Shown in pieces: positions 4,745 to 39,675 of a stretch of 47,998 nucleotides of DNA. Source of the DNA: Fragilaria crotonensis. Lineage: Eukaryota > Bacillariophyta > Fragilariophyceae > Fragilariales > Fragilariaceae. The notes beneath the pieces were generated by a model. The model saw only the letters and a list, made by a program, of their open reading frames with translations, ran no database searches and had not been told where the DNA came from. A program made the position numbers and the translations under genes. The stretch covers positions 1 through 47,998 of the forward strand of contig JAKSYS010000495.1 of NCBI GenBank assembly GCA_022925895.1, written 5' to 3'. How positions within the stretch are numbered: the first letter of the stretch is position 1; each line of letters starts with the position of its first letter.

Positions 4745-4759
4745 CGGGCGTTTAGACAC
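4745..4759 (-). repeat. Right terminal inverted repeat of the piggyBac-like element
   Basis: CGGGCGTTTAGACAC is the exact reverse complement of 1646-1660. On its inner side it is preceded by a run of C and the palindrome CTTTAATTAAAG. Confidence 0.75.
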
Positions 4760-6423: not shown

Positions 6424-6996
6424 GAAGGTCCGGCCCATGCACGTTCCAGCCGTACCGTTTGGGGCAGTTGAGTTTGCGCGCCAGCCTTCTCCGATTTGAA
6501 CGATGCGAGAGCTTTAGCGATGGTAATGATCCATCCGAGCCGGCAAGGTTGCTTCATCGTAAGCAAATTTTCTTGACAGTAAGCAAAATCAGTAAGCAAA
6601 TTCTGCCGGTAAGCGAATTTTGTAAGCAATTTTTTTCTGTAAGCAAATTTGATTTTCGTAAGCAATTTTTCTTTGCTGTAAGTAAATTTTATTAACGTCT
6701 TTGAAAATTGGTATGTTTTTACGTAGAAAAAGACAATACCCGTAAGCAAATTTAATCTTACAGTAAGCAAATTTTGTAAGCAAATTTCTGCTTACAATAA
6801 ATTTGCTTATGGTAAGCAAATTCCGTAAGCAAATTTTTTTTCGCTGTAAGCAATTTTTTTACAAACGTCAGCCGTGTCACCACCACGCCGGCACATCCAA
6901 TTTTGCGCCAGCCAGACATCGATCGGAACTTGTTTCCCTCCCGGCGGGCGCGCATAGTTCCTTTATTCACGACTTCGCCCGCATTGCCGGACCTTC
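6424..6996. mobile_element. MITE-like element with GGAAGGTCCGGC ends, copy 1
   Basis: A 573-bp non-coding element. Its left end GAAGGTCCGGC (6424-6434) matches the reverse complement of its right end (6986-6996). The left end continues GCACGTTCCAGCCGT, closely matching GCACGTTTTTGCCGT at the same offset in the element at 38949-39573, so the two belong to one family. No target duplication is obvious. The centre is an array of a GTAAGCAAATTT motif unlike the array in the other copy. There is no transposase, so it would be non-autonomous. Confidence 0.65.
6559..6858. repeat. Irregular array of GTAAGCAAATTT
   Basis: About 13 forward copies of GTAAGCAAATTT or close variants (GTAAGCAATTTT, GTAAGTAAATTT, GTAAGCGAATTT) begin near 6559, 6579, 6592, 6609, 6622, 6639, 6658, 6678, 6742, 6763, 6776, 6812, 6825 and 6845. 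Inverted copies occur near 6784-6810. Spacing is irregular (13-20 bp, with one 64-bp gap). The copies look like splice donors (GTAAG), but there are no exons around them. Confidence 0.9.
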
Positions 6997-9900
6997 CAGG
7001 GAGATCATCAATTGCCGAAATCCTATGTAATGCATAGCTAGCTAGCGTCGGGTCCAATATGATTCAAAATCTTAACGTAATTTGTGGATCATGTGTTTTT
7101 GCACTTTGACTGTACATTTGAATGCTTCAGGATGGAGATTTCTCATTGGAAAGGAAATGGAATTTCCATTCTCTTTATATGCTTTTTTCAGAATTTGTTC
7201 AAAGCGTGGTCTCAGTTGTAACGTAACTTTTCGATAGCGTCTTATGGTTTTGTCTCACTCGACAATTTTTACCCGTTCTAATTGTGGGGAGCATTGGATC
7301 AGTCTGAATTTTGGATTCTTTGCGCACCATGGAATATTTTGCTTGATAGTCTTCGGGACTAACTTGCTCACCTAGTAGGAATAATAGAACTGAGGATCAA
7401 TTCCGTACATAAATCCGAGCTGGATCATTTGCCAATCACCATTTCACTCCTGCAATGGTCATTAACATAGTAGAAATTGGCGCAGTCATCAATTTCTTCA
7501 CAGGGAATGATGCCTTGGTTTCACTCAATGAGAGAGTCGTGCGGATGCAATGGACAATGTAGCTGGTCTCAGGGCATGGGTCTGTTGTGCCATCCTTTTC
7601 TCTTTTCTTGTAAGTTGATTGATTGTGGGAACGTCTGCCGAAGAGCAGTTGGAACTGTCGGATGAGCTCTGATGGATCTGTGCTCAACGGCTCGAATGAA
7701 GTGACTTCTTGTCGATTACGCTTATCATAAAACTGCACTTCATTTCCATGAGTGCTGTTGGCTTCATGCATCCACTGGACATAAAGTATGGCTGGATGAA
7801 CACTCTTGCGATTGCTTGACGGCATATACTAGCGGAACTTGAGGGTTTTCTCCACACACGAACATTCGCGTGAGTTGGTTGTTCTTCCTGCTGGGCATTT
7901 GGAGCCGACGGCGGAATTGATGATTTACTGATGGCTGAATAAATGGAAAGCTTCATCATGGTAACTTGACGTAGAAGCTAGAGCCTAGCTATGCCAGATT
8001 CACGTGGAAAAATTTAGTAGACTTGATAGTTTCTTCTCCAAAGTGAAAAATTCTGCCTCGGGGTACTAGGTGGCATCATGCTTTGGTTGCTTCAGTTTGT
8101 CTCACTTGCTTGATCATTACTATTAACGAGTTTGAATCAGAAGGAGTAAGAAATAGAGGTACAAAGTCAGGTAAGTTCTGGACTCCGAATCTCAGCTTCA
8201 ATTTGGCAACATTCACAAACACAACATAAGGCAGACAGTCTTTAGATTTGTTAGTTGCTTGTCGGGATCAATCTCTGTGCATTTGCGACTGCTGCCACGA
8301 CTGCTTGTGTTGACACCAGCACATGATGCATCGGATGCACCAATGCTATCGTTGAGACGCTACAGGGACCATTGAAGCAGTTGGTGGCGGGCTGCCACCT
8401 CCCACAAGTACAAAGGTAGGAAGGTTGACCGTTAAGGAATGCCGCTCAAGTGTGCAATGCATGAGCTGGCCTTCCAGAACAAGTGACCCATGAAGATGTC
8501 TTGGTCGGCCTTGCTTGTGATCTTCATCTCGTCACAAGCATAATCTAAAAACAGACGACAATTCAAAGGACAAAAATTATGTTGCATAATGATAACTGTG
8601 TTTTTGATCAATTTCACCCTTGCCCTGTCCACTCTGTTCCATCCTTGACATCTGATGATGCAAAGTAAATCAGATTGCATTGCTTGATGCATAAATGTCT
8701 TGAATCTACTGTGGAGTTGCTGGCAAGAGTTTGCTATTTGTTCAAGCAAACAAATAGTTGCTCTCATGTAGTCAATATGACCATCCAATACTATTTCATA
8801 GTTCAGGCATTTCTTTGAATACAGTTTGGTCTGTCATGTTCAAAAAGAATGTGAATCAACAGCATGTGTAGTACAAAACAAGCTGTCAGCAAATATGGTG
8901 GGCATCTTATCATACTTGTCAAGTTTGGACATTAGACCTTCTTCACCTGATCCTGCATGAGAACACAATATTACATGAAGAAAAGGAAGAACAACTGCGT
9001 GCCAACAACCGCCAACATTGCTGGGATGGGTATTGGTACTTGCCCTCATCAATTCATGTCTCGTCTTCTTGTTGCTGAGCCCTCACCAAGACATCGCGCC
9101 ACCTTGTTGCTACTTCCTAAGTAAGAGAACTTATATCCACATTGTTGCAAACTAGTTTTGTTGGAGGCACTCTACTATGGTATGCTGTTGAGTCCAATTA
9201 CTTGGGCAAGGTATTGGGGATATGTTGAACAGGCAGCCTTGCCTGTCTTGAAATTTCCTTACGATAATCTGTGCTTTGAGGATGCAACAATGTTTTGGGA
9301 CGTAGTGACCATGTTACCCACTTCAAAACTGAGCAGAGGAATATCATTGCATAACAAACCAATGCACACTGGATACAGTACTTCTTCTCCTCGTTGCCAG
9401 ATTCCTCATATGCTTGTTTCTAACAGACATAACTCCTCATTGTCAGTAGATGCAGCAGCAGGCAGTGTAGCAACAAACAGCGATGATTCAGCATTGTCCT
9501 CAGTCTAGTTACAGCACTTCATCAAGTGAGCCTTTGAAGCCACTCATTGTGTTCACCACCAGGTGCTGTTGTGATTCTGCTTCTTGATACCAGCTACGCT
9601 CAGAGCTTATAGTTTTGCTGAAAATGAAGATACAGCCAAAGAACACATGTTCTTCAAGCATATGCAGTCAAAGCAATGGTCAGCTGGATTTCCGAACTTG
9701 GCTAAAATTCTTGATAATTTGGACTTCCAAGTAAACAAATGACGAGTCCCACTTAACCAAGAATAAAAGTGGATTCACGAATGAATTTCTTTATGTGCCC
9801 ATGGAATCTTGGGAATAAAAACCAAATGGACACCATCTTAGTATGTCTTATGTAAAAATGTCAAACCTTGTATTAAACATGCTGCAAGGTAGAGTTGCAT

Positions 9901-11161
9901 TCACTTATAACACGGCTATAATGTCATATTGAAGTCAAGTTCATAGGATTTTGGTACTAGTAGCTAGCAAGTGCTACTAGTAGTGCAGAATTGAACATGA
10001 TGGGCTTGTGTGTGTGCCATTGACAACACAAATGCAAATGTTAAAAACCTTGACAGAGCAATTGTTTTGTACCTCCAAGCGCAACCTGAGATTTTGCAAC
10101 TTATGGTGATTCCCCCATCACTAGTAGTAGCTAGTTGAGCTTAAGTGTGCATTGGCTGATTTCCACATAGTATGTCCATGGGACTGCAAAGTACCTTCAA
10201 GGAGGTTTCCTTCCTAACCTTTAAGTCCAGCCTTGGATTTTGCAACTCAGCAGGAATCCATCATCATTAGTAGTGTGAAAGTATGCATTGATTTGTATAC
10301 AAGTCCAGTACAAGATTAAACTTGTAATTGGTGCCATCAACAGCAACAATTAAAAGTTTGCAACTCTTGGCATTAGTACAGCGTACGAATGACGATATAA
10401 TAAACTCTTGCTTGCAACAGCATGGCACTACCTGAACGAAAAAATTGATACGCGTGCTTTTCAGTATCTTCGATCTGTGGCTACAGCGCACCAATTTTTA
10501 ACGTTATTACAGTATCGTACTCCAGTAAAGTAGCTTGTACTCGCTTTCTTAAATGGGTATGGTCTGCGTAAGAATCATATGCCAGTTATTCGGATTTGTA
10601 GAAACTGTATAAATCGAACGGACAAGGAACTGCCACGTCATGTGAAAGTCACAGAATGCTATTGAGAAGCCGTATCTAACGACTGATCTTTGCCATGTAC
10701 ACGGAGTACATATCTGGTGTATATGTCATACCAAAATGAACTTGTAAGAATGTACACATTGGCCATTATACAGAAACATGGAGTCCGAAAACTTCGTGCA
10801 TTGTTACTCGTACGAAATGCCTCAGTTGCATACATCATTCAACGAACCTCGGTTGAACTCGTACGCTGAGTAATAGGAGGATTCGTACCGCATATAAGAG
10901 AATTTTCAATTTGGCACGATTGCCTCGGAGTGGCACCCTCTGGGACCTTGAGGTCTACAGTGTTCTCATGTAAGGTGCAGTATATGTTTGATTGGTGGAG
11001 CAGCCCCTCTACAATTCTCGCCCTTCGCCTGCCGGAAGAGAATTACACCTGCTGCACCTAACGACGTTTTCCCTCGCTCTCACTTTTTCAGACATGCTGG
11101 AAAGCGTTGGAATTGGCATCCAGGCACCCAAACCTACATCTAGGAGATTGATTTCGTAGCC
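6997..11161. other. 4.2-kb gene-poor tract
   Basis: No convincing gene. The longest open frames (7436-7825 and 8432-8788 minus, 9158-9508 plus) lack recognisable domains and are not flanked by clear splice sites. Two degenerate related segments lie near 10070-10130 and 10220-10275, both with GATTTTGCAACT followed about 15-20 bp later by a TCATCACTAGTAG-like block. The right part (10690-10890) is rich in GTAC and presumably contains the promoter of the gene at 11162. Confidence 0.4.
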
Positions 11162-12058
11162 ATGGTTTCACTAATCGGCACCAACCACGTTGATGGCAGA
11201 TTTGCCGCGTTTGATCAAATGAACCATTGCATTCCAACCAATAGTAACGTTTCAGTTTCGTCGGGAGATGAGGTGTCTGGCGTCAGGAGGATCATACAAC
11301 GAAATGGAAAGGACTTTGTTCGTCAGCCATGCAAGGCACGAGGTGTCAGTGTTAAGGACGGTCAAGATCCACACGTTGCCAAGTTCGCCTACATCGACAT
11401 ACCCGTTGGAGCGGTGCATGGGACCGTTCTTTCCTGTTGCCACCCGCTCTGCAAATCCTCCGGTCGCCTTTTCCGCTACTGTATCCAATGTCAAACGGCA
11501 GTTGCCAAGCGTAACTTCAATGTACGTCATGCCCATGGAAAAACCCATTTGCAGCCTTTGCTCATGAAGAACATGGAAGATGTGAAGCCGGAGTCACGTA
11601 GTACTTGTAGTAGTTTGAGGAACACGAGAGCCATCAACCCGATTAGCGCTGACGATGCGGAAGCCAACATCCCGTCCTTCATTTCTATTGACGACAAGGT
11701 TAAGCCAAATACTCCCGTTCATGAGCCAGACGGAGCGATGTTCCCAGTGTATGTTACCTCGGGCGAACTTGAAGTTATTGCCTTGCTCCGCTCTCGCCCA
11801 GGACACGATTTTGCTGGAACAAAAGAGCAGTGGAGGCACGAAATTCTCAGTTATGCCGAGAAGGTCTGTCAAAGCGTGCATTCTCCAACTATCCCACTTT
11901 CTGGCAAAGCCCGCGTTTATGGCGGTGAAGTGTATGACTACGCGCCGCAAGAATTCAACGTCTGCACCTCCGCTGATGACCTGGATATGAACAACGACGA
12001 AAGCGCCTCAGCGAGCGATTTCGATGGCGTTGACATTGCATCCTTTTTTGAGGCTTGA
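11162..12058 (+). CDS. Cys/His-rich protein of unknown function, diatom-type
   Basis: A 298-aa single-exon protein starting at the first ATG (context agccATGG). Near residues 75-130 is a compact block, FAYIDIPVGAVHGTVLSC, followed by C-x3-C, YC-x2-C and VAKRNFNVRHAHG. The spacing of Cys and His suggests a zinc-binding fold. I recall similar blocks in many diatom proteins of unknown role, but cannot confirm this here. The C-terminal half contains ELEVIALLRSRPGHDFAGTKEQW and an acidic Ser/Asp tail. There is no signal peptide or membrane segment, and nuclear or cytosolic location is inferred only. The frame is intact. No function is assigned. Confidence 0.75.
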   Translation: MVSLIGTNHVDGRFAAFDQMNHCIPTNSNVSVSSGDEVSGVRRIIQRNGKDFVRQPCKARGVSVKDGQDPHVAKFAYIDIPVGAVHGTVLSCCHPLCKSSGRLFRYCIQCQTAVAKRNFNVRHAHGKTHLQPLLMKNMEDVKPESRSTCSSLRNTRAINPISADDAEANIPSFISIDDKVKPNTPVHEPDGAMFPVYVTSGELEVIALLRSRPGHDFAGTKEQWRHEILSYAEKVCQSVHSPTIPLSGKARVYGGEVYDYAPQEFNVCTSADDLDMNNDESASASDFDGVDIASFFEA

Positions 12059-12679
12059 TATCGTCGTTCGATTTCGATCGCTTGAACCGCATGGCATTCC
12101 AACAATGGAAACCATGCATCCGACTACGTCGAACTCATGTCATGCTCCCACCTGCAGCTCTGGTTCAATCAGAAGGAGGGAGCGTACGGTTAGGACTTGA
12201 AGGGATGTTCACCTTTTTACCTCCAATCGAATCCAACAGGTCCAAATCATTGCGTAGAAAGTGCCGTCACTTTTTGTCGTTCTGGTTCACCAACCAAGTT
12301 TTCATCACTGCGTGCGCACATCCATCCCTCTCGCTATCGCACTCATCAATCGATGTACTGGTACCTGGTAGTTTCCTTCTTGAGTTGAGCGCCTCCACTC
12401 CATGAAAATCGTGAGTCTACTGAGGTCTACATGGGTTGAAAATCTTGTTGTCCGTCACACCGAACTACGAAACGATGTACGGACTTCGGTGCCTTATTTC
12501 TGTACAGCACATACATATATAAATATATATAGTAGGATATTCTTCCGTACAGTAAAGGACACACCAAACGAATTGTCAATTACTCCGAGTATTGCGGAGA
12601 TCGGAGATATCTACTGTTGTGGCAGTATGTACTACAGTCTCTCCAGTTGTAACAGACTCCTGTAAAGTTCAGATCCACC
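12059..12679. other. Intergenic between two same-strand genes
   Basis: Contains the 3' flank of the upstream gene and the presumed promoter of the GH18 gene, including an AT-only run TATATAAATATATATA near 12515-12530. No gene is recognised; short open frames here have no domains. Confidence 0.4.
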
Positions 12680-13633
12680 ATGAGGGAGCAGTTCTACATT
12701 TTGTTAACAGTATTGTTGACGGCATACACCCGTGCCGAGTTCATCGTAGCGGGATATCTTCCTGATTATCGCAGCTACGTGAATGTCAACAATACAGCCA
12801 CTCTGTTGACTGACCTCATCCTCTTTTCCATCGAACCGAACGGTGTCTCAGATGAGAACCCCCTAGAAGGACAATGTTGTTTGGGGGAGTCTCATTACAA
12901 GCTCGCTCGAGAAGCGCGCAAGCATCGATCCCACTTTATTCGAACTCCGCTCAAGCTGTGGGTCTCAATTGGAGGAGCTGGTCGATCCTCAGGATTTAAG
13001 AATCTAGTTTCATCGGAGTCGAAACAAGTTTCATTTGTTCGCAACTTGGTGGGCTTGTGCAAGAGAGAGCATCTTGATGGGATTGATCTTGATTGGGAAG
13101 GCATCGATAGCCAGAATGACTTCAATCTGTACATGGATTTTATTGTGCTAGCCGCCAAAGCTTTACACGACGAAAACCTCATGCTGTCTATCACAACCCG
13201 ACACCGACACCCGCCTGCCGTATTGCACCACGTCGATCGCATCAATTTCATGGCATATGACTTATTGCTACCGAATGGCCCTAAACATCACGCCAGCTAC
13301 AGTGTTGTCACGAAAATGATCGACGAGTGGTTGGCAGCGGGGTACCCACCTCGTAAAATCGTCCTAGGCATTCCGGGATATGGTCGACACAAAGGCAGCC
13401 CTTCACAAGTCATGACGTACGCGGAACTCGTCGATGATGGACTAGAGGATGTCTCCATCAGTGAGTGGAAGGGCATTTTGTTTGACTCTACGAAACTGAT
13501 ACGCAAAAAAGTGGATTATGTCAAGAAGAAAGGGCTTGGTGGAGTGTTTCTCTGGGAACTTGGTCACGACAAACAGCTACAGTCAACCCACGGTGGTGTG
13601 CTTCTGAAGCCGTTTCAGAAATTCAGCAAGTGA
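12680..13633 (+). CDS. Secreted glycoside hydrolase family 18 (chitinase-like) protein
   Basis: A 317-aa protein with a hydrophobic N-terminal signal sequence (about residues 1-19, ending YTRAE). GH18 landmarks are in order: beta-1 strand FIVAGYLPDYRSY, the SIGG motif at 96-99, the catalytic signature DGIDLDWE at 133-140 (acid/base Glu140, with the preceding Asp residues of DxxDxDxE all present), MAYDL at 191-195 and GIPGYGR at 230-236. The end GVFLWELGHD corresponds to the last barrel strand. All catalytic residues are present, so it could hydrolyse chitin or related beta-1,4-GlcNAc polymers. It is short and lacks a chitin-binding module, so a chitinase-domain-containing-protein-like role is also possible. 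The frame is intact. It converges on the nucleoporin gene, with almost no 3' spacing. Confidence 0.9.
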   Translation: MREQFYILLTVLLTAYTRAEFIVAGYLPDYRSYVNVNNTATLLTDLILFSIEPNGVSDENPLEGQCCLGESHYKLAREARKHRSHFIRTPLKLWVSIGGAGRSSGFKNLVSSESKQVSFVRNLVGLCKREHLDGIDLDWEGIDSQNDFNLYMDFIVLAAKALHDENLMLSITTRHRHPPAVLHHVDRINFMAYDLLLPNGPKHHASYSVVTKMIDEWLAAGYPPRKIVLGIPGYGRHKGSPSQVMTYAELVDDGLEDVSISEWKGILFDSTKLIRKKVDYVKKKGLGGVFLWELGHDKQLQSTHGGVLLKPFQKFSK

Positions 13634-13657
13634 AGGATGAGCTCTGACCGACAGCTA

Positions 13658-16600: not shown

Positions 16601-19600
16601 ACTGAGAGAACCTGCGAGGCAGCAGCGGCACTCGCATTAGGCAGCCCGTGACCTGTGGAAGGACAGCCACTGCTGGTGTTGCTACAAGCCTTGGCGACCC
16701 AAAATTACCAAGTGGGGCCGGATTGGAACTCTTGCCAAATGGATTAGACGGTGCTGATAATGACAACGGTGGATAGCCTGAGGAAACGGTGGGCATTGCT
16801 GGCTTCAGAACCGACTCAGCGACGATGCTTTTGGAGAAGGGAACTGATGGCAATGATGGCCTCGGCGGCAAACCAGACAACGGAGCCGTGGTGAACTCGG
16901 GGGGCGGAAGGTCAGTGGACGCAAAGCCGGCAAATGAATTTGTTGGGACTTTCGTTACTGGCAACTCAGTGGAGGCTTCCACTGCGCTGCGCAGAGGATT
17001 CACTACACCATACTTTTTCGCAACCTTTCAAGCATTACCTCCTCTTTTCCCTTGTACTTCTTCAGCAGCGCCGGGATGTCAGGTATCTTGGACGGCTCGT
17101 GGTCCTGGTACACTTTCATCAGTAGCGCTCCGTAGTTTGGCCCGTTCGAAGAATCAGCCTTCGCAGCTTCCGGTGTGCTTGAAGCGAACGGATTCGATGG
17201 CGCTTTGGATGACATTGGAGGATAACCAGAGGCGGGAGCAGGTATTGCAGATCCCGGCACAGCGGTCGTATTGGAAGAGTCTTCCTTGGCAGTATCTGGC
17301 TTGATCGAACCAAAAGGATTCGACGGTGCCTTTGACGATATTGGAGGATAACCAGAAACCGGAACTGTGGAGCTGGCCATCACAGTGTTCTTGAAAGAAT
17401 CTGCCTTCGCAGCGTCCGGCTTGCCCGAACCAAAAGGATTCGATGGCGCCTTCGACGACATCGGAGGATAACCAGTGCCAGGAGCCGGGCCTGCGGAAAT
17501 GGGCTTTGTCATCTTCGTGTCACTCGCGGGGGCGCCGGAAGCAAACGACCCTTGGGGGGCAGCCTTGTCGCCTTTCACTACGCCGAAGCCAAACGCCGAC
17601 TGCGGTTCCACCTTGATACCCTGGGCAACGCCGAAGCTGAAGCCTGATGAGACTGGTGCTTTCAAGGACGACGTCTCCGAAACCGGTGGCGAGCCAAAGG
17701 AGAAACCACTGCTGACCTGGGGCTTAAAAGTAGAACCTCCAAAGGAAAGCGTAGACGAGGCGGGTAGCGCAGATGCAGATGGCACGCCAAACGAGAATGA
17801 CGAAGTGCCAGCGGCAGCCATCGTCGAAGTTCCCTGTTTCGCCATATCGGCCTCGAAACCTGGACGAACTGTCTCACAAGACACGCACTTCTTTTTGTCA
17901 TCTTCATTCTGGATCATACACACGTCGCATTTCCATCCCTTGGGTTTACCAAAAATGCCGCCCCATCCGTCAGCCACGGCGGATCTCCCAGAGAAGCTCT
18001 CGTCCGCTCGGTCACCCTGCGCCTCTTCGTCGCTCTCGTCGTCACCTTCGAACAGCCAAGGAATGTACCACGCCTCGAAAGCTTTCCATGCGATGCTGCC
18101 GGGTGGTCCTTCCATGCTCTTGGCTGCCCTGCCGTGCACTTCCTCAGCGTATGTAGTCCCGATCTTCTTCATAAATTTGGGGAAAAGATCCATGTTGATC
18201 GATTTCCCGTCATCGGTGCTGAACACTTTGAAAACCGCGAGCACCCTCTGTCGTTCTTCTTCTCGCTCCTCTACCTCGTCCTCGTCAAGCTCTTGGTCTG
18301 CGTAGTCCTCGTCCGCCGATATCAACCCGCAGTACCATTTTATGAACGCCTCACGCTGGATAGAGTTCGATACATCTGGATCTACCAATTTGAGTTGAGC
18401 GTCGAGCTCCTCTCCGTGAAATCCTTCACCGAGTTCTTCCAGCAAGTCTTCGAAGCGCTCTATCGGGAGCTGTCCTGCTTTGTCGTCGTCGAGAGAATCG
18501 AATGCTTCGGCGGCAGCCTCGGCTCCAGGATAATCATATGCTTCCTTTTGTATGACTCGATTTGTCGACGACTCAGGGAGGTTTTTATCTCGGACAGTCT
18601 TCAGTGGAGGAGAGCTAAACAAAGGTTTTGTCATTGAGGAAGTAACGACAGTCGGAGTCGCATTCGACAGCCCGAATGCGCTAAATGGGGATTCAGAAGC
18701 GATGGGTAACGAGCTCAAAGACGCGAGCGGCAAAGTCTTCAAAGGATGCTTTGACGGGATTTGCAGAATTGCAGCAGTGCTGTTGCTAGTAGGAGCCAAT
18801 CTTGACGGGGATTGGCGGAGGACACTGCAGCGTCCAAAGGATTCATTATACCATACTTTTTCGCAACCTTTTCAAGCATTACCTCCTCTTTTCCCTTGTA
18901 CTTCTTCAGCAGCGCCGGGATGTCAGGTATCTTGGACGGCTCGTGGTCCTGGTACACTTTCATCAGTAGCGCTCCGTAGTTTGGCCCGTTCGAAGAATCA
19001 GCCTTCGCGGCTTCCGGTGTGCGTGAAGCGAACGGATTCGATGGCGCTTTGGATGACATTGGAGGATAACCAGAGGCGGGAGCAGGTGTTGCAGATCCCG
19101 GCACAGCGGTCGTATTGGAAGAGTCTTCCTTGGCAGTATCTGGCTTGATCGAACCAAAAGGATTCGACGGTGCCTTTGACGATATTGGAGGATAACCAGA
19201 AACCGGAACTGTGGAGCTGGCCATCACAGTGTTCTTGAAAGAATCTGCCTTCGCAGCGTCCGGCTTGCCCGAACCAAAAGGATTCGATGGCGCCTTCGAC
19301 GACATCGGAGGATAACCAGTGCCAGGAGCCGGGCCTGCGGAAATGGGCTTTGTCATCTTCGTGTCACTCGCGGGGGCGCCGGAAGCAAACGACCCTTTGG
19401 GGGCAGCCTTGTCGCCTTTTACTACGCCGAAGCCAAACGCCGACTGCGGTTCCACCTTGATACCCTGGGCAACGCCGAAGCTGAAGCCTGATGAGACTGG
19501 TGCTTTAAAGGACGACGTCTCCGAAACTGGTGGCGAGCCGAAGGAGAAACCACTGCTGACCTGGGGCTTAAGATTAGAACCTCCAAAGGAAAGCGTAGAC

Positions 19601-22600
19601 GAGGCGGGTAACGCAGATGCAGATGGCACGCCAAACGAGAAAGACGAAGTGCCAGCGGCAGCCATCGTCGAAGTTCCCTGTTTCGCCATATCGGCCTCGA
19701 AACCTGGACGAACTGTCTCACAAGACACGCACTTCTTCTTGTCATCTTCATTCTGGATCATACACACGTCGCATTTCCATCCCTTGGGTTTACCAAAAAT
19801 GCCGCCCCATCCGTCAGCCACGGCGGATCTCCCAGAGAAGCTCTCGTCCGCTCGGTCACCCTGCGCCTCTTCGTCGCTCTCGTCGTCACCTTCGAACAGC
19901 CAAGGAATGTACCACGCCTCGAAAGCTTTCCATGCGATGCTGCCGGGTGGTCCTTCCATGCTCTTGGCTGCCCTGCCGTGCACTTCCTCAGCGTATGTAG
20001 TCCCGATCTTCTTCATAAATTTGGGGAAAAGATCCATGTTGATCGATTTCCCGTCATCGGTGCTGAACACTTTGAAAACCGCGAGCACCCTCTGTCGTTC
20101 TTCTTCTCGCTCCTCTACCTCGTCCTCGTCAAGCTCTTGGTCTGCGTAGTCCTCGTCCGCCGATATCAACCCGCAGTACCATTTTATGAACGCCTCACGC
20201 TGGATAGAGTTCGATACATCTGGATCTACCAATTTGAGTTGAGCGTCGAGCTCCTCTCCGTGAAATCCTTCACCGAGTTCTTCCAGCAAGTCTTCGAAGC
20301 GCTCTATCGGGAGCTGTCCTGCTTTGTCGTCGTCGAGAGAATCGAATGCTTCGGCGGCAGCCTCGGCTCCAGGATAATCATATGTTTCCTTTTGTATGAG
20401 TAGATACGTCGAGAGGTCGACTTCGGGTTCCTCGGATTTTGAAATGACCTGCTCAGACATGCCTTCTAAAGGATTTGGGACGCCGTACGTCTTGGAAATT
20501 TTTGCAAACATTTCCGATTCCTTGCCCTTGAATTTCTTCAGCAATTTAGGGATATCCTTCAACTTTTCAGGATAATCTTTCTCATAGAACTTTGTCAAGA
20601 TAGCAGCATAATCTGGGTCGACTGCCTTGGTCGGTTCCAAAAGGGATGCAGCCGAAACACCAGTGACAGGCTGAGATCCGAGTAGAAGCTTCGAAACATG
20701 GTCCGTTTCCTCTTGTGTGACTCGAGGTGTCGAGAGTTCGACTTTGACTTCCTCGGATTTTGAAACTGCCTCTTTCGAGATGGCGTCTAAAGGGTTCGGG
20801 ACGCCATACGTCTTTGCAATTTTTGCAAACATTTCCGATTCCTTGCCCTTGAATTTCTTCAGCAATTTAGGGATATCCTTCAACTTTTCAGGATAATCTT
20901 TCTCATAGAACTTTATCAAGATAGCTGCATAATCTGGGTCGACTGCCTTGGTCGGTTCCAAAGGGACTGCAGCCGAAACACCGGCGACAGGCTGAGATCC
21001 GAAGAGTTGCGTTGTTCCCTTTCCAATGGTCGACGATGACGAAGTGTTTCCGCCAAACGCCCCGGAGGTATTGTCCAAGACCAGCTTATTCGGGACTGGC
21101 GCCGACCCAAATAGTGGTCTCGCGATCATTCCTGTCCCAGAAGCGTGGCTTTTGGGTGCACCGAAAGCCCCAAAGGGATCTGAAATCGCGCCAATTGTGA
21201 TCTCTGTTCCTTTAAGAAAACCGGGGGAATCCTTCGTTTCGGAAGCTAGAGATCCGAATGTAGGTCGATTATTGAAGCTTGCCCCAAACGTAGTACCAAA
21301 AGAAGGCATGCCGGTCCCTGATCCAAACGTAGGACTTTGTCCGAAGCTGGATGTGGCCGCAAGATCTCCATTCTCTTCTCGCGAGTTGGGGCGAGCAGCG
21401 GGTGGGGCCAAGCCAAAGGTGAAGGGGTTCGAAGCAGGAGCTGCTCCGAAACCACCGAACGCTGGAGTGGTAGCAGATGCTGTTTTGACAAATGATTGAG
21501 CTGAAGCGCCAACACTACTAGTTTGACCAAAAACTGGAGTCGGTGCAACTGACGCAGTCGCCTGGCCAAATTTTGGCGGCACAGGACTCGTCATTGGCAT
21601 CTGACCGATCGTCTGAGAGCTCGACATGCTTGCTCGACCCAAGCCACTGTTTTGAAATGCGACCGTAGTCTCGCCAAATGTCGGAGTCTTTGAAGAGCTA
21701 CCAATTGATGGTAAAAATGGAGCTGTCGCCTGTGCGACCATGCTTGGTTGGATTGGCACTGGCTGGAGCGGAGGCAGCTCAGGTGCCTTGAAATAGTCGT
21801 GGTTCCCCGAGTGTTGTAATTGAAGGCACGTAAGAGACCCATCGGTTGCGCTGATGTATAGCAACTGCCCCAGGGTTGCCAAACCGACGCAAAACGTGTA
21901 GTCGTCTTCTTCAGTGGTAGGCGTTGTTGCACCTGCGCCTTCCGTCAGCTCCAATAAGGTTAGGTCTGGCATGTACACGAGGGCGAGATCCGACCCCACG
22001 TTGGTTCCAACCACCAAGAAGTTGTAAATGAATTGTGTATAAAAGATATGCCTTCCATTGTGGGGAACGGAAAAGAAGGGAACGACATTCCCGATGTCAG
22101 CCCATTCAGAAGTAAGAGTGTTATTCTCAAGGGAGACAAGAAACATGTTCACGATATGCTCAGCCGTATCATCTTCATCTTCTTCATCATCACCATCACC
22201 GGTCAGAATGGTGCAAAACCCGACAATGAGGGTGGAGGCATCGTGACAAGCGAGATATGTACAGCAAAAGCCGTCGTCTGCTGGTGTTGCCCAGGACTTC
22301 AACAGCTCGGAAGTCTGATTCGCAACGCTGTACACTTCTATTTCTCCCATTTTCTTCCCAACAGCCACAATATCCTTCGATATCCAAGTGGCACACGTGG
22401 CACCACCAGCAACTACAACAAGGGCTCTTGGCGCTGACTCCGCCGCATTGTAAACCATAGCATGCTGTGTTCCTGCATCTGCGAGAAGCAATTGATGCCA
22501 AGGATTAAGCTCCAAGCTAATCAACGGTCCAGACGCGCTTGCACCCCAGTCGCGACTGGATGACAAGGGCTTGTCGACTTCACTCGAGACGAACGAATGG

Positions 22601-25870: not shown

Positions 25871-26024
25871 ATGTACGAGCACCATTGCATTGAATGAGAA
25901 ATCCCCCTTCAACTACGTCTAGTATCGGCTTCTAAAAACGAAAGCAAATGCTAAGTCTTCCTACAACTCTAAACGATTTTCTAGCGTAGTGAAGTTGGCA
26001 CGTGGCTTGTATAAAGCTGTTTTA

Positions 26025-28058: not shown

Positions 28059-28459
28059 GGTGATGACAACGTTGGTTCGAAACAATGGGGCCTGAAGGTT
28101 TCAAATTTTAATTGCTGGCTCACGTAGCAAGGCGCATAACCTGTACAGGACCACCATTCATCAGACATCAGACTGCAGACCCTACTGGTACAAGAGTACA
28201 AGAGTACAGTACTACTAGTAGTACTTGTACCTGGTATGATATTCGTATACTGGATGCACTTGTTGGTTGGTGTAAAAGTGCTTGTACCACTGTTGTGAGT
28301 CGCACAGTACATGTACGCCTAGAGTATGTACTAACTCGTCTGCCACCAGTACTGTAGTACGGCGGACTGCAATGACGGGTACTGGATACTGGATACTACT
28401 ACTGCTAGCAGCATATGTTCATGTATCTGTTCGTATTACGCATATGCTACTACTACTAC
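28059..28459. promoter_or_regulatory. Upstream flank of NOP2, GTAC/AGTACT-rich
   Basis: A 400-bp non-coding stretch between the NOP2 start and the first Crypton-like element. It is dominated by short words such as GTAC, AGTACTACTAGTAGTACT and TACTGGATACTGGATACT. It presumably contains the NOP2 promoter. No gene. Confidence 0.5.
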
Positions 28460-29497: not shown

Positions 29498-29833
29498 CTA
29501 CGCACATGTGAGGCCAAGTTGATCAGCGACAATTTCTAAATCAAGTCTAAATTCACAGCAACGTTGCCAATTCCAGATGTTGCATCCTGTATCCACCATT
29601 CCACAATGATTTTTGAGAGCTGATGGCACACCTGTTGTGGCAACATGCCGAATGCTTCTACTAGTAAATACTCCGGGTATTTCAGCATCACTAGTTGCAA
29701 AATGCTGGTGAGGACAAATATTCCCGATGTCATTCAAAAGGCGCACTCGACAGTGTATAGTACTCAGAGTACTACTAGTAAGGAATTGATTCAGGCCTGT
29801 GAAGCATCGATTCCTGAAAATCAGAGTGTCCAA
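29498..29833 (-). other. Conserved open frame in the left third of Crypton-like unit 1, unidentified
   Basis: A 111-codon minus-strand frame, kept open in the second unit (33686-34024, 112 codons) with similar but not identical sequence. A second overlapping frame (29536-29733 and 33724-33921) is also open in both, so I cannot tell which is translated, if either. No domain is recognised. It may be part of an accessory gene or 3' exon of the element. Confidence 0.35.
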
Positions 29834-29863
29834 CGTGGCTGGTTTGTCATGTGTAGATGTGTA

Positions 29864-32396: not shown

Positions 32397-32652
32397 GCTT
32401 GCGCTGATGGTCAGATAAGTTTTGTCACATGTGAAGTGCAACACAATTTTACCAATTTACGCACCTTGGGCTTGTGGTCGCATACAGTACCGTGTAGTAG
32501 GTGTCAGACATAAATTACTACTGGAGTACATAGCAGTACTGTTGGCTGGGACTAGTGGAGGCGTAGGACTCAAAAGGCCTGAGAAAAGCATGATGCTGGA
32601 CAGACCACAAAAACTGTATAAGCTTTCTTATACTTTTTGTCGAGGCTCCTAC

Positions 32653-35600
32653 ATAACCCGGTGAAATATAAGAGATATAGACCTTTTACGAGCTCGGAGG
32701 TCACATTGTATAAGAAAATCTTATATTTTCAAGTAGTCCGAGAAGTACTCCGCGCGCCTTCTAGTGGTGATTCTGCGCACAATTCTTCAGTCACACCAGT
32801 CATGAGAGGTATTCTTGGAAAAGTATAAGACTTCGAGCTTTTTGTCTTATACTTTCCCAGTGGGAGTAGTACTTGTACTCGTGAACTCGTGACAGCAATC
32901 GGTGCTCACTACGACGCGTCGACGTATGGAATACTGTAAGTGCCAACACACGGTGGCGATTGGGGCACAGTACCAGAACTGAACTGAAATTGACGGCAGT
33001 TTGTTGCAGTAATGCAGTATACGACTACTGTAGTAATTCCAGCCCTAATTCCTACGGCATGTTGGGAATACGACCTTCATCCGCAACTTACAACAACAAA
33101 CAATACCAGGATGTTGCGTAGATCGTTTATTCACGTGTTACTTCTGACAGTGAATTTATTGTGAAGCTGCGACTGCATACACTTTGAAGTCAAACATGTT
33201 TGCAATCATGATGCTTCATCATACTGGAGTATCCATGATCATATTCCCTCTGAAAGGTCAGTGACTTCAATGTGCCTTGTACCTCATTTGCTTGTCGCTA
33301 ACTTGTGTTCCCAACATCAAAAATGACACACTACTAGTATGACATGTTTGATCAAATCCAAATGCACTCGAAGCTTGTCGCCTGCTAAGAAGAAATTCTT
33401 GTCTGCTGCAAGGCACACCCCGGACCCAGTGAAAAGTACTTCTTGGGAGTGTGCATGAAGGGTGAGGAGGGCATCCCTCCTTGTCTGTTTGTTCTTGGGG
33501 TGGTGATTTTGTGTGATGTCGGAAAAAATTCAACATTCTCGCCAAAGGTAGACATCATCTTTTACCGCAACGTTACCGTTGCAAGTAGAAAGGGGGACAA
33601 AACGAGACATCGTTATAAATCATTTTGACATTCTTTCTTGGAGCTTCTGTTAAGGCCTTGTCTTGGATCCTGTTCTCGGTAAGTACTACGCACATTTGAG
33701 GCCAAGTTGATCAGCGACAATTTCTAAATCAAGTCTAAATTCACAGCAACGTTGCCAATTCCAGATGTTGCATCCTGTATCCACCATTCCACAATGATTT
33801 TTGAGAGCTGATGGCACACCTGTTGTGGCAACATGCCGAATGCTTCTACTAGTAAATACTCTGGGTATTTCTGTATCACTACTTGCAAATTGCTGGCGAG
33901 CACAAATATTCCAGATGTCATTCAAAAGGTGCACTAGACAGCAGTGTATAGTACTCAGAGTACTACTACTAAGGAATTGATGCAGGCCTATGAAGCATCG
34001 ATTCCTGAAAATCAGAGGGTCCAACGTGGTTTGTCATGTGTAGATGTGTAGTGGAGGTTTTGCATTACTTCCTGTTCAACAGTGAATTCTGACCGAGGAC
34101 CATGGATCTGTTCATGGTTATTGTGTTGTATGACTGCAGCATGACGCTTTTCGGTCGTGAAATCGGAGTTCGTTTTCTTTGCTCTTTGTGTTCTGGGTTG
34201 GTTGAATCGTGTCGCTTGTGGAAGATTGTCCTTGTCGACTTGCTTTCCATGCTTGATGATCTCCGATGCCCTTGCATGTTTTGACCAAGTGGATATTTTC
34301 CATGTCTGTGGCTTCACTTTTGGACCTTTGTCGAACACATAGCTTACTCGCTTTGTCTTCAGATACTCAAATGCCACACTATAAAGCTCCAAAATTGGGT
34401 GGCAGTGATAGTACTTGGATTCCTTGGAATATCGAGCCCTGGAGTTTGACACATCATCTGCAGTATTGGCTCCCAATGAAGGTGAATACTGCTCTAACGG
34501 ATTTTGGAAGCATTTTGGGTCGAGCAGTCGGAATGGCCTTATTGGAGCAGCTTTTGACACAGAATCCTTTGTCTCGATTTCATAGCCAGGCATACCCTTC
34601 AACCACAGACGAAAAGCACCTCTCAAATCAACCTGGGTTGGGAACTCGAAAGGTTTTGGTACCTGCCAAAAGTGACCATTGTGAGAATACACTCGATAAA
34701 TGGCACCACCGCCATGATTGCTTATTTGCTCTTCTTCCCCTGCAAAGTCAACTCCTCCATCAGTGTTGTTGCCGATTGAAATGTCATCACCTGATGTGTT
34801 GTTGGTCTGTCCATATCTCAACAAATGGGTGCGGATGCTATCAATTTTTGAATGCAACTTTGACATACGACAATCTAGCAGGTGTTCCATGTGCTTGCGG
34901 AAGTCATCAAGTATAAAATTCATTCGATCAGCTGTCATTTGGCCATTTGCGGACATTTTTGCCTCGTATGCTTCTGCCACAGACTCTTTGACCTGCATTG
35001 TTATATCTCGAACTTCTTCCAAAACTGTTGTACATATCTCCAGCACCTTTTTCACCATCACCGCACTTTGGATATGAGGTGGAATTCCTGTTGCAGTTTT
35101 CATTGACTCAGTTGGCTCTGTCGTGACAAGAGCCTTTAAATTAAGCAGCAAATCCTTATCATGGAGTAGTGGGATGAGGCCAAATGGATGCCCCGGAACC
35201 TTCCGTATCCAATCATACAGAAATTCAGAGTGATGAATGACAGCGGGAAGGAGTCGAAGAAGTAATCCAGTGGGATTGATTGAATTTCCTGACCAGCGTT
35301 GAAGGATTGGCCCATACATAGGTGCATTGCCTCATTAATTTGTGCATTTCCCATTGGATCGATAGGAATGAAATGAGGCGGAAGGGATGCAAAGTTTTCA
35401 TTAAGGGGATCCAAGCCGGCCAAGATACGCCCAAGGTAAGTGTCGGCAGGTTCTGCTAAGTACAAATACAAATCAAATACTCGACCAAGCGACCACTCAC
35501 CACGCCCAGCTGTTGCTGTAGCAGGTGGTGGACAGGTTGTACCTGACTGAGAATAAGTACCGGAGCCTTTGCGAATTGAATGCGTGTTTGCATGTTTAGG

Positions 35601-36824
35601 TCGAATGTAGGCCGACAGCTCCGGTGTATTTGCATCGAGAATATCATTGAGCTGGGAGCAGAACCGCTGTGATGCTGCTCCCTCTAGAGTGTCTCGAGTC
35701 AAAAAGAGATATTCACTGTCCCCAAACCGTGCAGTGTCCAGAGCAAACCAAACCCCGAGTGCTAGGTAAAGATCCAAAATGGCATCAAAAGGATTGGAGA
35801 ATAAATGCTTGTCGTGTGCACTGTCCCCGGTTTGATCAGTCTTGTGTTTGTCATACCTCCCCACAATCGAATCCTCCTCAAGGCGAAAGTTATGCAGACC
35901 AAGTGTCCCAATACTGATTGAACGCGCCATAAATGACCACTGCAACAATCCAAAAGTCCAAACAAAAGGATTTTTCAATTCAAGTGCCCAGGTCATCCAC
36001 ATTCGAAAAGAAGGAAACAGGGTCTGCCTCGCATTCATCAATCCTCCCATCCTTCTTTGCAGTTGCAGCTTCTTTCGATACGACATCATCCACTTTTCCA
36101 TCTCCGTGTAGTAAGATGTGGGAGCTGCTCTTTTGAACATTCAGCCCCCACAGAACCGCATCATTATATTTTCTGATTTGTTCAAAGCTGCTTGTATTCC
36201 CGTTGTCCTTTATCTTCTTTGTGGTTAGGAAGGCCTTAAATATTTGTACGTTCAAACCCTCATAGCGCAAATCGTGCGTGTTTTTATGATGAAACCCACC
36301 CAGGTCGGCATCGCCAAGCTTCCTGATACCTCCTAGTTCACAGTACTGTGGATATGCCTTCTTCATAAATTCATAAATATGCTTGATTCGATTCCGATAA
36401 TCCTTCTTTGTTTTAGCCTGTCGGTCATGTCCTTCCGTTTCAAGCATTCCCATGCTGTGGAGTGTTTTGATCGGGATACTTTCCCCAATTATAGGGACAA
36501 CATCATTGGTGTCACGCTGATGTGGGCGTATGCGCCCATGTGATTGAGATGATGAATGTCGTGGCATGCTTGCACTGATGGTCAGATAAGTTTTGTCACA
36601 TGTGAAGTGCAACACAATTTTACCAATTTACGCACCTTGGGCTTGTGGTCGCATACGAGTACCGTGTAGTAGGTGTCAGACATAAATTACTACTGGAGTA
36701 CATAGCAGTACTGTTGGCTGGGACTAGTGGAGGCGTAGGACTCAAAAGGCCTGAGAAAAGCATGATGCTGGACAGACCACAAAAACTGTATAAGCTTTCT
36801 TATACTTTTTGTCGAGGCTCCTAC
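32653..36824 (-). mobile_element. Crypton-like tyrosine-recombinase element, unit 2 of a tandem pair
   Basis: A 4,172-bp second copy, head to tail with unit 1 with no spacer. The first ~220 bp and last ~200 bp match unit 1 almost exactly. The copies differ by substitutions and many one-base indels, mostly in homopolymers (for example GCATTTTTGGG in unit 1, GCATTTTGGG here). The right end GAGGCTCCTAC is followed by non-repeated host sequence at 36825. Confidence 0.75.
34012..36567 (-). pseudogene. Crypton-like tyrosine recombinase, copy 2, frameshifted
   Basis: Same protein as copy 1, starting at the ATG at 36567. The catalytic block (MARSISIG, HSIRKG, RGEWSLG, FDLYLYLAE) is present in the open frame 35136-36140. 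Breaks lie near 36110-36140, near 36000 and near 35330. A short stretch near 34430-34520 reads in the wrong frame between two compensating indels relative to copy 1. Because the two copies break at different places, each part of the protein is open in at least one copy. That argues for a recently functional element or for sequence error. Confidence 0.7.
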
Positions 36825-36951
36825 GTAGGCGTAGTAGCTATGTAGTGTAGCGTACTCCCTGTAACTCTGGTACTAGTATTGTCCTACTGCTGACCTTTGC
36901 ACTGTCGAGCATGAACGACCTGTACTACGAACTACGAACAGCAGTTCATAC
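36825..36951. other. Spacer between the Crypton-like pair and the hAT MITE
   Basis: Short non-coding stretch rich in GTAC/GTAG words. Its last eight bases (GTTCATAC, 36944-36951) are the left target-site duplication of the MITE. Confidence 0.6.
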
Positions 36952-36963
36952 CAGGGCTGCGCA

Positions 36964-37210
36964 ACAATATATTGTATTACAATATATTGCAATATATTGT
37001 TACCAATACAATATATTGTAGTAGTAAAAGTATTGCAATATATTGTATTGTCGTTCTGAAGTATTGCAATATATTGTATTGTTGTTCTGAAGTATTGCAG
37101 TAGTAGTATATTGTATTGTCCATCTGGAGGATTGCAATATATTGTATTGTCGTTTTGAATTATTGCAATATATATTGTATTGTCATATTCAAGTATTGCA
37201 GTATATTGTA
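36964..37210. repeat. 31-bp repeat array 1 (CAATATATTG core)
   Basis: Units of the form TATTGCAATATATTGTATTG plus an 11-bp variable linker. Clear starts at 37031, 37062 and 37093 give an exact 31-bp period. Some later units are shortened or altered (37093-37200). Confidence 0.9.
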
Positions 37211-37324
37211 CAATATGTTGTACGGTGGCATGGTACAAGTACTATGTACCACTCTAGTATGCACTGTACGTGGATGCATCCGTACAATTGGTGTTTCGGT
37301 CCGGGCTGCGCAACAATGTTTACA

Positions 37325-37560
37325 CTGTATTGCAATATATTGTTACCAATACAATATATTGTAGCCTTAAAAGTATTGCAATATATTGTATTGTCGTTCT
37401 GAAGTATTGCAATATATTGTATTGCTCTATTAAAGTATTGCAATGTATTGTATTGTCGATCTGAAATATTGCAATATATTGTATTGCTGAATTAAAGTAT
37501 TGCAATATATTGTATTGTCAATTTGAAGTATTGCAATATATTGTATTGCATATTCAAGAT
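37325..37560. repeat. 31-bp repeat array 2 (CAATATATTG core)
   Basis: Unit starts at 37374, 37405, 37436, 37467, 37498 and 37529 are each exactly 31 bp apart. The core TATTGCAATATATTGTATTG is nearly constant and the linker varies (CGTTCTGAAG, CTCTATTAAAG, CGATCTGAAA and others). Confidence 0.92.
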
Positions 37561-37782
37561 TCAACAATACAATAACAATACTATTGTGCGCAGCCCTGGT
37601 TCATACACTCGCCCGCCTCCATGAACTACCGGTAGTACAAGTACAAGTACTTAACTCCAATGTCAATAGCATCTCGCACGGGTTTGCAATTTCTTTTGAA
37701 AGAGCTAATAATTACTCATGATTGCTACCAAGGAGTTCTGACCAACGACTACCTTCACATTGTCTCGAGACCCAGACCTTTA

Positions 37783-38592
37783 TCACGACCTCTTCGTCTT
37801 TTCCTTTGCGAGTTCATAGGGTGGTTGTATAGGAGGCTGAACGGGAGTATTGTCAAAATCTGAGTCAACTGGATAACTCTTGTTCGCATCCATGTCTACT
37901 CCTGTCTTTGAAAACCCTGACAAGTCACCACACGCGATGAACGGTACTACCGATGGATCCAAGCTCCCGATGTCAGCTATCGTACCCAAAGGCAATTTGC
38001 AGTTCCCTATAAAGTCTTCACACACCACAAACGCTTCACTCGAAGAATTTCTGGACGCCGACGGTTTGGCAACGCTGACACGGCGAAAAACGAGTCGCAG
38101 TTGGGCATACAATAAACCTACATCCTTGTGTCGGAAGATTTTCGCCACAAAGGTGCCTCCATCGCGCAGTAGATGTGTCGCCAAGGCCAGGGCACTGAGC
38201 AATAGCTGTCCCTGTAAATAGTCGTCCACATCGTGTAGACCTGTGACATCAGGCGCACCATCACACACCACCAGGTCGGCCTGTTGATTGTCGAAGGCTC
38301 TCAGAATCGCATGAGCCGTGTCGACCGACGTGATGTCACCCTGCATGCAGAAGACGCCATCCAAGGGCGCCATGGGCTGTAAGTCAACGGCCACCAGTTT
38401 CTGAACATGTTCACTCAGGACTTGGGACCAGGATCCCGGAGCGGCGCACAAATCGACGGCTCGCTGAGTTCCTGCCAAAAATTTGAACTCGGAATCCAGT
38501 TGTAACAGTTTAAATGCTGACCGCGCTCGATACCCCATTTCTTTGGCGCGGCGATAAAACACATCGCGTTTGTCTCTCGATAATCGGCCCAT
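37783..38592 (-). CDS. TRM7: tRNA 2'-O-ribose methyltransferase, TRM7/FTSJ1-like
   Basis: A 269-aa SAM-dependent RrmJ/FtsJ-fold enzyme. The cytosolic TRM7 group methylates riboses at positions 32 and 34 of the tRNA anticodon loop. The start [29 protein letters not shown] is characteristic of TRM7/FTSJ1. The catalytic tetrad is complete: Lys28 (SAFKL), Asp111 (CDGAPDVTG), Lys151 (FVAKIFR) and Glu186 (SEAFVVC). The SAM-binding motif is [14 protein letters not shown] (about 46-59). The frame is intact from the ATG at 38592. After about residue 195 the tail is poorly conserved in general, and here it ends Lys-rich (AKEKTKRS). The close bacterial and mitochondrial paralogues (RrmJ, MRM2) lack this N-terminal signature, so TRM7 is preferred. 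Confidence 0.93.
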
Positions 38593-38948
38593 TGTGATGC
38601 TTTCTGAAGAATTCTGGTAGACCTACGCCAAACGTTCGGTCTGGATTCTGGAGAGGGGATATGCCCGAATCAACCGACGGCGACAGCAGATCTGATCAAG
38701 ACCTAAATTGAGAGATGAAAACAAAACTGATGGCAGGTGCGAGGTGCGACAGGTGCGGAATTGCGATAAAAGTTTACTCCTGAGTCACCAAGTTCGACCT
38801 CTGAGGAGTACTCTTGTGGTTCAAACTTGCATACTCCAGAACGTCTTCGTTCTGTTTTCGCCCGACACCCTCAGCTGCCATTTATTTTCAACTTCGTGAA
38901 CGTAGTCAGAGAAATAATCAGGGGTCTTCGTGCAGCGAACGAAGAGCT
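38593..38948. other. Upstream flank of TRM7, no gene
   Basis: Non-coding between the TRM7 start and the MITE-like element at 38949. It should include the TRM7 promoter. No distinct motif can be assigned. Confidence 0.45.
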
Positions 38949-39091
38949 GGAAGGTCCGGCCAAAGCACGTTTTTGCCGTTAAGTTCCGGTAGCGAAGTCA
39001 TTTCCACGTGAGCCGACTTCAAAAAACATGTGCTGCGATATTTGTAGCTGGTGCAGTCTATGCAATCGAGCCGGTAAGGTTTTCTGATGCG

Positions 39092-39238
39092 AAGTGGAAA
39101 TCCACTTCGGCTAAGTGAAACTCCACTTCCCCGAAGTGAAATTTCACTTCCCCTAAGTGAAATTCCACTTCACCGAAGTGGAATTCCACTTAGGGGAAGT
39201 GGAATTCCACTGACCCGAAGTGAAATGCAATTTTCCCG
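39092..39238. repeat. 21-bp palindromic tandem array, cluster 1
   Basis: Seven units with an exact 21-bp period: a 16-bp palindrome AAGTGGAATTCCACTT (variants AAGTGAAATTTCACTT, AAGTGAAATTCCACTT) plus a 5-bp linker (CGGCT, CCCCG, CCCCT, CACCG, AGGGG and others). A degenerate eighth unit follows. Confidence 0.95.
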
Positions 39239-39293
39239 AAATGACTTAGTACTGAATTGTGTAGGCGACACGTGTGTCTATCGCGTTGTGAGG

Positions 39294-39435
39294 AAGTGGA
39301 ATTCCACTTCGGGTAAGTGAAAATCCACTTCGGTGAAGTGGAATTTCACTTCGGGTAAGTGGAATTTCACTTCGGGTAAGTGGAATTTCACTTAGGGGAA
39401 GTGGAATTTCATTTAGGGGAAGTGGAATTTCACTG
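39294..39435. repeat. 21-bp palindromic tandem array, cluster 2
   Basis: Seven units starting at 39294 with exact 21-bp steps up to 39420. The palindrome is AAGTGGAATTTCACTT or AAGTGGAATTCCACTT and the linkers are CGGGT, CGGTG or AGGGG. It is separated from cluster 1 by about 55 bp of non-repeated sequence. Confidence 0.95.
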
Positions 39436-39675
39436 ATTAGGATCCACATGATAAACGCGCCGGCCTTGCTTTTTATCAGTTGACAATGACATAACGTGGA
39501 ACCGAGACAATTACTATGAGGTGTCACGTGTTCTCGGTTTTTCCTCGATTCGGACGGTGCGGCCGGACCTTCCTGCACTTTATCACGTCCTGACGCTCCG
39601 GACTTCATTCATACAATTGGCAATATTGTTCGGTAACACTCTCGGGCAAGGGTTCTGAGATCATTATTTCAAAGA

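Follow-up and report, generated by a model that had tools for sequence, protein, structure and literature searches.

A Family of Short Inverted-Repeat Transposons in Fragilaria crotonensis Carries Paired Internal Arrays That Differ Between Subfamilies

Introduction

The described transposons closest to the short elements reported here, two of which lie in a 47,998-nucleotide stretch of Fragilaria crotonensis DNA (contig JAKSYS010000495.1, positions 1 to 47,998; hereafter the window), include NuwaI, a member of the PHIS (PIF/Harbinger-ISL2EU-Spy) superfamily. Its hallmark is a CWG target duplication; its terminal inverted repeats (TIRs) are 12 to 61 bp long and usually start with GGG, and its autonomous copies carry open reading frames (ORFs) for a DDE transposase and a Myb/SANT protein (PMC4482050). 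PIF/Harbinger elements depend on two proteins, one of them an accessory Myb-like protein that presumably binds DNA of the element; when the Myb-like fold of the accessory protein was mutated in a yeast assay with mPing, excision became undetectable (PMC2836001). In Harbinger3_DR, the single PIF/Harbinger example for which this is described as demonstrated, a 9-bp subterminal motif is recognized by the Myb-like protein (PMC9710019). Miniature inverted-repeat transposable elements (MITEs) with tandem arrays are also known, among them Xstir and miDNA4 of Xenopus and elements of Donax trunculus (PMC12628747).

The F. crotonensis family resembles NuwaI in its 3-bp CWG duplication; its TIR, at 11 to 12 bp, lies at about the NuwaI minimum of 12 bp (PMC4482050). 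A limited search between the ends turned up neither a transposase nor a Myb/SANT gene belonging to the family itself. With Tourist-type MITEs of PIF/Harbinger, such as mPing, it shares short transposase-free copies, TIRs, and a 3-bp duplication; however, the duplication in those MITEs, and in PIF/Harbinger sensu stricto, is TWA and here it is C-N-G, and the long arrays found here are not mentioned for mPing-type MITEs in the excerpted account (PMC2836001). Like the tandem-repeat MITEs, the family has MITE ends around tandem arrays of variable copy number (PMC12628747). Unlike them, it has two arrays around a spacer, built from seven motif types with a common half-site that track the phylogeny of the ends. 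A search of a limited set of open papers, by title and opening lines of the abstract, met no description of this two-array architecture.

Results

Two Elements with the Same Ends and Different Arrays

Element 1 (positions 6424 to 6996, 573 bp) and element 2 (38950 to 39572, 623 bp) both carry perfect inverted ends, GAAGGTCCGGC(C), of 11 to 12 bp, and both contain the left block GCACGTT-NNN-GCCGT, as a preliminary description of the window had reported. The limits which that description gave for element 2, 38949 and 39573, take in one base on each side that belongs to the CTG duplication, and the outer G of its 13-mer end is likewise part of that duplication. Element 2 is flanked by CTG on both sides; element 1 has AGA on its left and CAG on its right, so its target duplication is not intact. 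Arrays in the window were detected with Tandem Repeats Finder (TRF), and the limits of the spacers and of the element 1 arrays were set by eye. TRF places GTAAGCAAATTT-type repeats between 6579 and 6787 in element 1 and arrays with a 21-bp period at 39090 to 39244 and 39292 to 39434 in element 2. No ORF of at least 200 aa overlaps either element, a weak test at such lengths.

A Mobile Family with C-N-G Target Duplications

In the 62.1-Mb genome (881 contigs, of which the window is C443), the exact end 11-mer GAAGGTCCGGC occurs 521 times, 264 times forward and 257 times reverse, against 20 times (10 and 10) for its reversed control. The ends are therefore not due to chance, the possibility under which the preliminary description would have regarded the two loci as unrelated. 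Places were obtained for 100 of the 521 ends, together with further subsets of subfamily ends. The genome-wide check for inverted pairs that had been proposed returned, among these 100 places, 27 convergent pairs with lengths of 455 to 1914 bp and one of 7.2 kb. Our main tally comprises 59 elements with both ends; seven further two-ended copies stand outside it, two of which represent one locus on two contigs. Another locus was dropped because no partner end was found (L106).

Identical 3-bp flanks surround 49 of the 59 elements (23 CAG, 23 CTG, 2 CCG, and 1 CGG), so that CWG duplications account for 46 of the 49 identical pairs and for 46/59 elements overall. All seven copies outside the tally are flanked by CAG/CAG or CTG/CTG. 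Beyond the duplication itself, the target is roughly palindromic: C directly precedes the duplication in 22/49 cases, and G directly follows it in 25/49. Precise insertion is evident at L011, where a copy of the element 1 type (W1) is nested in an array of another type (d) with CAG duplicated; the uninterrupted d-type sequence at L002 provides the empty site, one base off the filled flank. A copy of the element 2 type (W2) lies in a W1-type array at L082 and L083 (contigs C184 and C733); the two fetched stretches agree at 99.6% over 1,305 bp, of which 120 bp lie to the left of the W1 copy.

Inverted ends together with a target duplication are the signature of cut-and-paste transposition, and the presence of both here indicates that this family moved in that way. 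Its short inverted ends, many copies, 3-bp duplication of fixed length, and short bodies without coding capacity (352 to 783 bp in the 53 copies without large insertions) make it a MITE-like family, and with arrays of variable copy number inside MITE ends it is one of the tandem-repeat-containing kind. The earlier proposal of a single mobile family with conserved ends is thus borne out by the end counts, the C-N-G duplications, and the nested insertion.

Several further loci bear on insertion. The two contigs carrying the L082/L083 nest represent either both assembled haplotypes or a duplication. At C712:41977-43167 (G000), two W1-type copies follow one another head to tail, their match ends abutting, which suggests insertion into a copy's own target duplication. 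C179/C361 was considered as an allelic empty site, but homology breaks off before the element and an insertion polymorphism was not demonstrated; neither C202 nor C394 has homology to its presumed partner.

Eight Subfamilies with a Common Layout

The fetched copies fall into eight subfamilies, W1, W2, e, d, f, c, b2, and g, defined on 53 of the 59 elements after exclusion of six copies with insertions. Clustering of the interiors by motif, as the preliminary description had suggested, gives seven types, since d and f have one common array motif and are separated by their ends. The layout is a TIR, about 100 bp, CGAGCCGGCAAGG, an array, a spacer, a second array, a block containing CGCCGGC or similar, and the other TIR. 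The CGAGCCGGCAAGG block, with at most two mismatches, begins at base 112 to 120 in 55/59 elements, directly ahead of the left array. Both window interiors are multicopy: a search with that of W1 (164 candidates, best 40 scored) gave 41 long matches of at least 90% identity, the window copy included, and a search with that of element 2, which recovers W2 with b2 and g (74 candidates, best 40 scored), gave long matches from 94% down to 68%. The exact W1 left end occurs 55 times in the genome, and GAAGGTCCGGCCCAAG, the left end found in c, d, e, and f, has 82 exact copies.

Homology of the subterminal blocks was assessed with profiles, the left one built without the TIR from 22 W1, e, d, and f elements and controlled with two-base-block shuffles. 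L005, L099, and L105 were excluded from these tests and from the tree described below. The left profile matches all 28 of the c, b2, g, and W2 elements, compared with 4 of 2,800 shuffles. The corresponding right-block profile matches c in 5/5 cases. Profiles based on c match b2, g, and W2 in 23/23 cases on the left and in 22/23 on the right, every match lying above the best shuffle. Judged by these profiles, the left block is homologous across the subfamilies. The central spacers were compared by eye in the alignment only.

The tree built from both end blocks (50 rows) contains the groups W1 (100/99), d (100/100), c (96/92), and f (100/99), with d joined to f (91/76); e is a single row. Under assignment by motif counts, W2 (8 rows, 93/97), b2 (13 rows, 100/99), and g (2 rows, 100/99) are each single groups. 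Array motif type agrees with the tree in 50/50 rows, a figure reached after four rows were relabeled: L091, L102, L092, and L093 had been labeled W2 from BLAST, were flagged by the first tree, and on motif counts went two to b2 and two to the new subfamily g. No hybrid between ends and array was confirmed among the rows examined. One copy, C327:461014-461605, is a possible hybrid of ends, with a W1-like left and a d-like right pattern, but a single base change in a W1 copy would explain it equally well.

Array Motifs Probably Form a Graded Series

The commonest array motif of W1 is GTAAGCAAAT; e arrays contain both GTAAGCAAAT and GTCAGCAAAT, and d and f arrays contain GTCAGCARAT. In c the motif is CTGACSGTCAG, with a few GTCAGCAAAT besides. 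The remaining arrays have the units CTTACSGTAAG-TGRAATTYCA (b2), CTTAGGGTAAG-TGGAATTCCA (g), and CTTMGGGKAAG-TGGAATTYCA (W2). GTMAG exceeds the mean of dinucleotide shuffles (0.9 to 2.2) in all eight subfamilies, with mean counts per element of 16.5 in W1, 14 in e, 15.1 in d, 11.7 in f, 18.6 in c, 14.9 in b2, 9.5 in g, and 4.0 in W2. The excess is smallest in W2, where the shuffle mean is 1.1 and the shuffle maximum is 4. The 10-mer GTMAGCARAT is kept in W1, e, d, and f despite differing spacings (13/17/21 in W1 and 19/29/10 in d). When one W1 copy was compared with one e copy, 108/140 motif positions were identical, compared with 126/216 spacer positions, although the alignment may favor the motifs.

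Unit profiles connect the remaining subfamilies. For b2-W2, b2-g, and g-W2, none of 1,000 draws reached the observed similarity in either null, and c-b2 gave p values of 0.005 to 0.008. From the motifs and the unit profiles together, we grade the array links as strong from W1 via e to d, good to c, moderate from c to b2, and strong from b2 to W2. The two window arrays probably diverged from one and the same internal array, as the intermediate subfamilies e, d, c, and b2 bridge most steps between them. The statement that the interiors "differ completely" holds for the two window arrays taken alone but not for the family; that the arrays are unrelated is not supported, given the same bridging subfamilies, although the direct comparison of c with W2 is not significant.

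Candidates for an Autonomous Copy

DDE_Tnp_4 transposases are plentiful in the genome (best 150 scored of 333 candidates). When 20 of these best 150 loci were sampled at about ±2 kb, some showed single TIR-like matches and none showed a pair. The candidate at C786:47383-54047, which has the same ends as the family and encloses a DDE transposase and a 596-aa ORF, was rejected, as the genes belong to a nested element; the host copy is of subfamily e and holds another nested repeat too. Relatives at L069 and L072 have similar ends. At L061 (1691 to 5969), a 4.28-kb Harbinger-type element with a TAA duplication carries convergent genes for DDE_Tnp_4 and a 596-aa protein; the latter has no Pfam match at E values up to 1, and a genome search with the transposase protein gave 411 candidate places, of which the best 75 were scored.

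The 7.2-kb copy L027 contains a 6,673-bp foreign element at 735 to 7407 with the ends CATCAGAAGGTGGGTTTTG and, measured against the empty site at L002, what looks like a 2-bp TC duplication; none of its three longest ORFs matches a Pfam transposase. L079, also 7.2 kb, encloses a long terminal repeat retrotransposon with gag- and copia-like pol ORFs, identified by eye. Insertions are visible by eye in the long copies L012 and L015, L080 and L081 have one end only, and L063 to L066 are long copies of 1.1 to 1.8 kb. A GGAGGTCCGG end close to a transposase match on C2 proved to be a tiny MITE.

Discussion

We favor, at a probability of roughly 55%, the reading that this is a MITE-like, nonautonomous cut-and-paste family moved in trans by a PHIS transposase, with arrays that are accessory-protein sites changing stepwise. 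A transposase of the PHIS superfamily, NuwaI-like by its target duplication and encoded elsewhere in the genome, would act on the ends; such an enzyme is probably the mover. The arrays are probably clustered sites at which the system's accessory Myb-like protein binds, given that a short motif conserved in arrays of changing period fits Myb-like binding sites. The motif may ancestrally have been GTMAGCAAAT and later have become 21-bp units of CTKACSGTMAG and TGRAATTYCA. Array length would change through slippage, and the motif would change subfamily by subfamily with no swapping at single loci.

A number of observations weigh against this reading. NuwaI ends usually begin GGG and those here begin GAAGG, so we do not assign the family to NuwaI, and the NuwaI families described in the same work are exclusively animal (PMC4482050). 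Ten of the 59 elements, element 1 among them, have no identical 3-bp flanks. Both g matches to the left-block profile (8.1 and 5.0 bits) fall below the best shuffle (8.5 bits), and the W1-group right-block profile finds 0/23 of the b2, g, and W2 elements. The direct link between W1 and W2 is thus confined to the left block; on the right they connect only via c. The arrays of b2, g, and W2 lack GTMAGCARAT altogether and those of c hold few copies (mean 1.4), the unit similarity of c and g is weak (p 0.036 to 0.049), and that of c and W2 is not significant (p 0.08 to 0.11). Finally, the 100 listed ends and the subfamily end subsets yielded no autonomous copy of the family, so that the check suggested earlier was negative within this limited search; the C786 transposase sits in a 4,279-bp nested element with the ends GGCCCTCCCTTATACG and a TAA duplication.

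It is possible, though we doubt it, that the arrays are neutral, that is, slippage-prone AT-rich repeats carried by a MITE, with subfamily motifs drifting by concerted evolution. Element length does vary inside a subfamily (352 to 601 bp in b2), and tandem repeats within MITEs are said to vary in copy number (PMC12628747). Drift of this kind sits poorly with a short motif that persists while period and spacing differ, with the GTMAG excess in 8/8 subfamilies, and with the higher identity of motifs than of spacers between the W1 and e copies, allowing for the possible bias of that alignment toward motifs.

That the mobilizing enzyme belongs to a superfamily other than PHIS that also makes 3-bp duplications is unlikely. 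The lack of an autonomous copy in the limited search and a TIR start other than GGG would fit such an enzyme. We know of no group other than NuwaI with exactly a C-W-G duplication. This duplication is the NuwaI hallmark and speaks for PHIS (PMC4482050).

Use of the palindromic 21-bp units as hairpins in movement, in the manner of fold-back elements, is very improbable. The W2, g, b2, and c units are near-palindromic, but paired changes show no excess at the positions tested, which makes hairpin use less likely: b2 TGRAATTYCA has paired types in 46/107 cases where about 55 are expected under independence, W2 has 38/76, as expected, and c has 0/24. W1 arrays, moreover, are chiefly direct repeats. 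Equally hard to credit is the proposal of the preliminary description that the ends are conserved while locally amplified motifs take over the interior at individual loci. Seen in isolation, the W1 and W2 arrays do look unlike each other, and maize Ds elements with common ends vary greatly in size and composition (PMC3260210), but here each window interior is common to many copies, motif type follows the ends tree throughout, the left block past the TIR is homologous, array position is fixed in all but four of the 59 elements, and C327 is the one possible hybrid.

Returning to arrays as accessory-protein sites, a more speculative extension, which we hold to be improbable as it stands, is that the array motifs are subfamily-specific addresses and that the MITE subfamilies followed an accessory DNA-binding protein as it duplicated and changed specificity. 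If so, a record of transposon-regulator coevolution would be readable within one genome. In this family a short motif recurs many times within two arrays and differs stepwise over eight subfamilies with nearly constant ends. Were the motif a binding site, it would provide a ready-made series for testing joint change of transposon sites and proteins; were it not, the family would be a clean case of array turnover that retains a half-site.

Features of the Window

Table 1. Coordinates of the element parts and of a putative small relative in the window
Feature	Position	Strand	Basis or remark
Element 1 (W1-type) left terminal inverted repeat, GAAGGTCCGGC	6424..6434	+	Left flank AGA
Element 1 left subterminal block, ending in the shared CGAGCCGGCAAGG at 6536-6548	6435..6548	+	Homologous between subfamilies (profile test)
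Element 1 left GTAAGCAAATTT array, irregular spacing	6559..6690	+	TRF, motif counts; limits by eye
Element 1 central spacer	6691..6741	+	Alignment; limits by eye
Element 1 right GTAAGCAAATTT array	6742..6861	+	TRF; limits by eye
Element 1 right subterminal block, containing CACGCCGGC	6862..6985	+	Alignment
Element 1 right terminal inverted repeat	6986..6996	-	Right flank CAG
Element 2 left target-site duplication, CTG	38947..38949	.	Flank comparison
Element 2 (W2-type) left terminal inverted repeat, GAAGGTCCGGCC	38950..38961	+	Sequence
Element 2 left subterminal block, ending in CGAGCCGGTAAGG at 39067-39079	38962..39079	+	Alignment, homology test
Element 2 left 21-bp array, unit like CTTMGGGKAAGTGGAATTYCA	39090..39232	+	TRF gives 39090-39244
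Element 2 central spacer	39233..39291	+	Alignment; limits by eye
Element 2 right 21-bp array	39292..39434	+	TRF, unit profiles
Element 2 right subterminal block	39435..39560	+	Alignment, homology test
Element 2 right terminal inverted repeat	39561..39572	-	Sequence
Element 2 right target-site duplication, CTG	39573..39575	.	Flank comparison
Tiny 66-bp element with the same end type (CAG-GAAGGTCCGGC...GGACCTCC-CCAG), without arrays	47893..47958	+	Putative relative only

Of the 14 ends in L028 to L040, 8 come from a related tiny MITE, about 80 bp long (GAAGGTCCGGCCACGCACC...TTACCGGACCTCC). Elsewhere in the window, positions 17003 to 20149 hold two similar gene-sized stretches with equal 276-aa frames, an apparent tandem duplication, in which the repeats match at 17149 to 17475 and 18993 to 19319. 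Positions 37009 to 37549 contain two blocks of about 31-bp tandem repeats with a CAATATATTGTATTG core beside an FtsJ-like gene.

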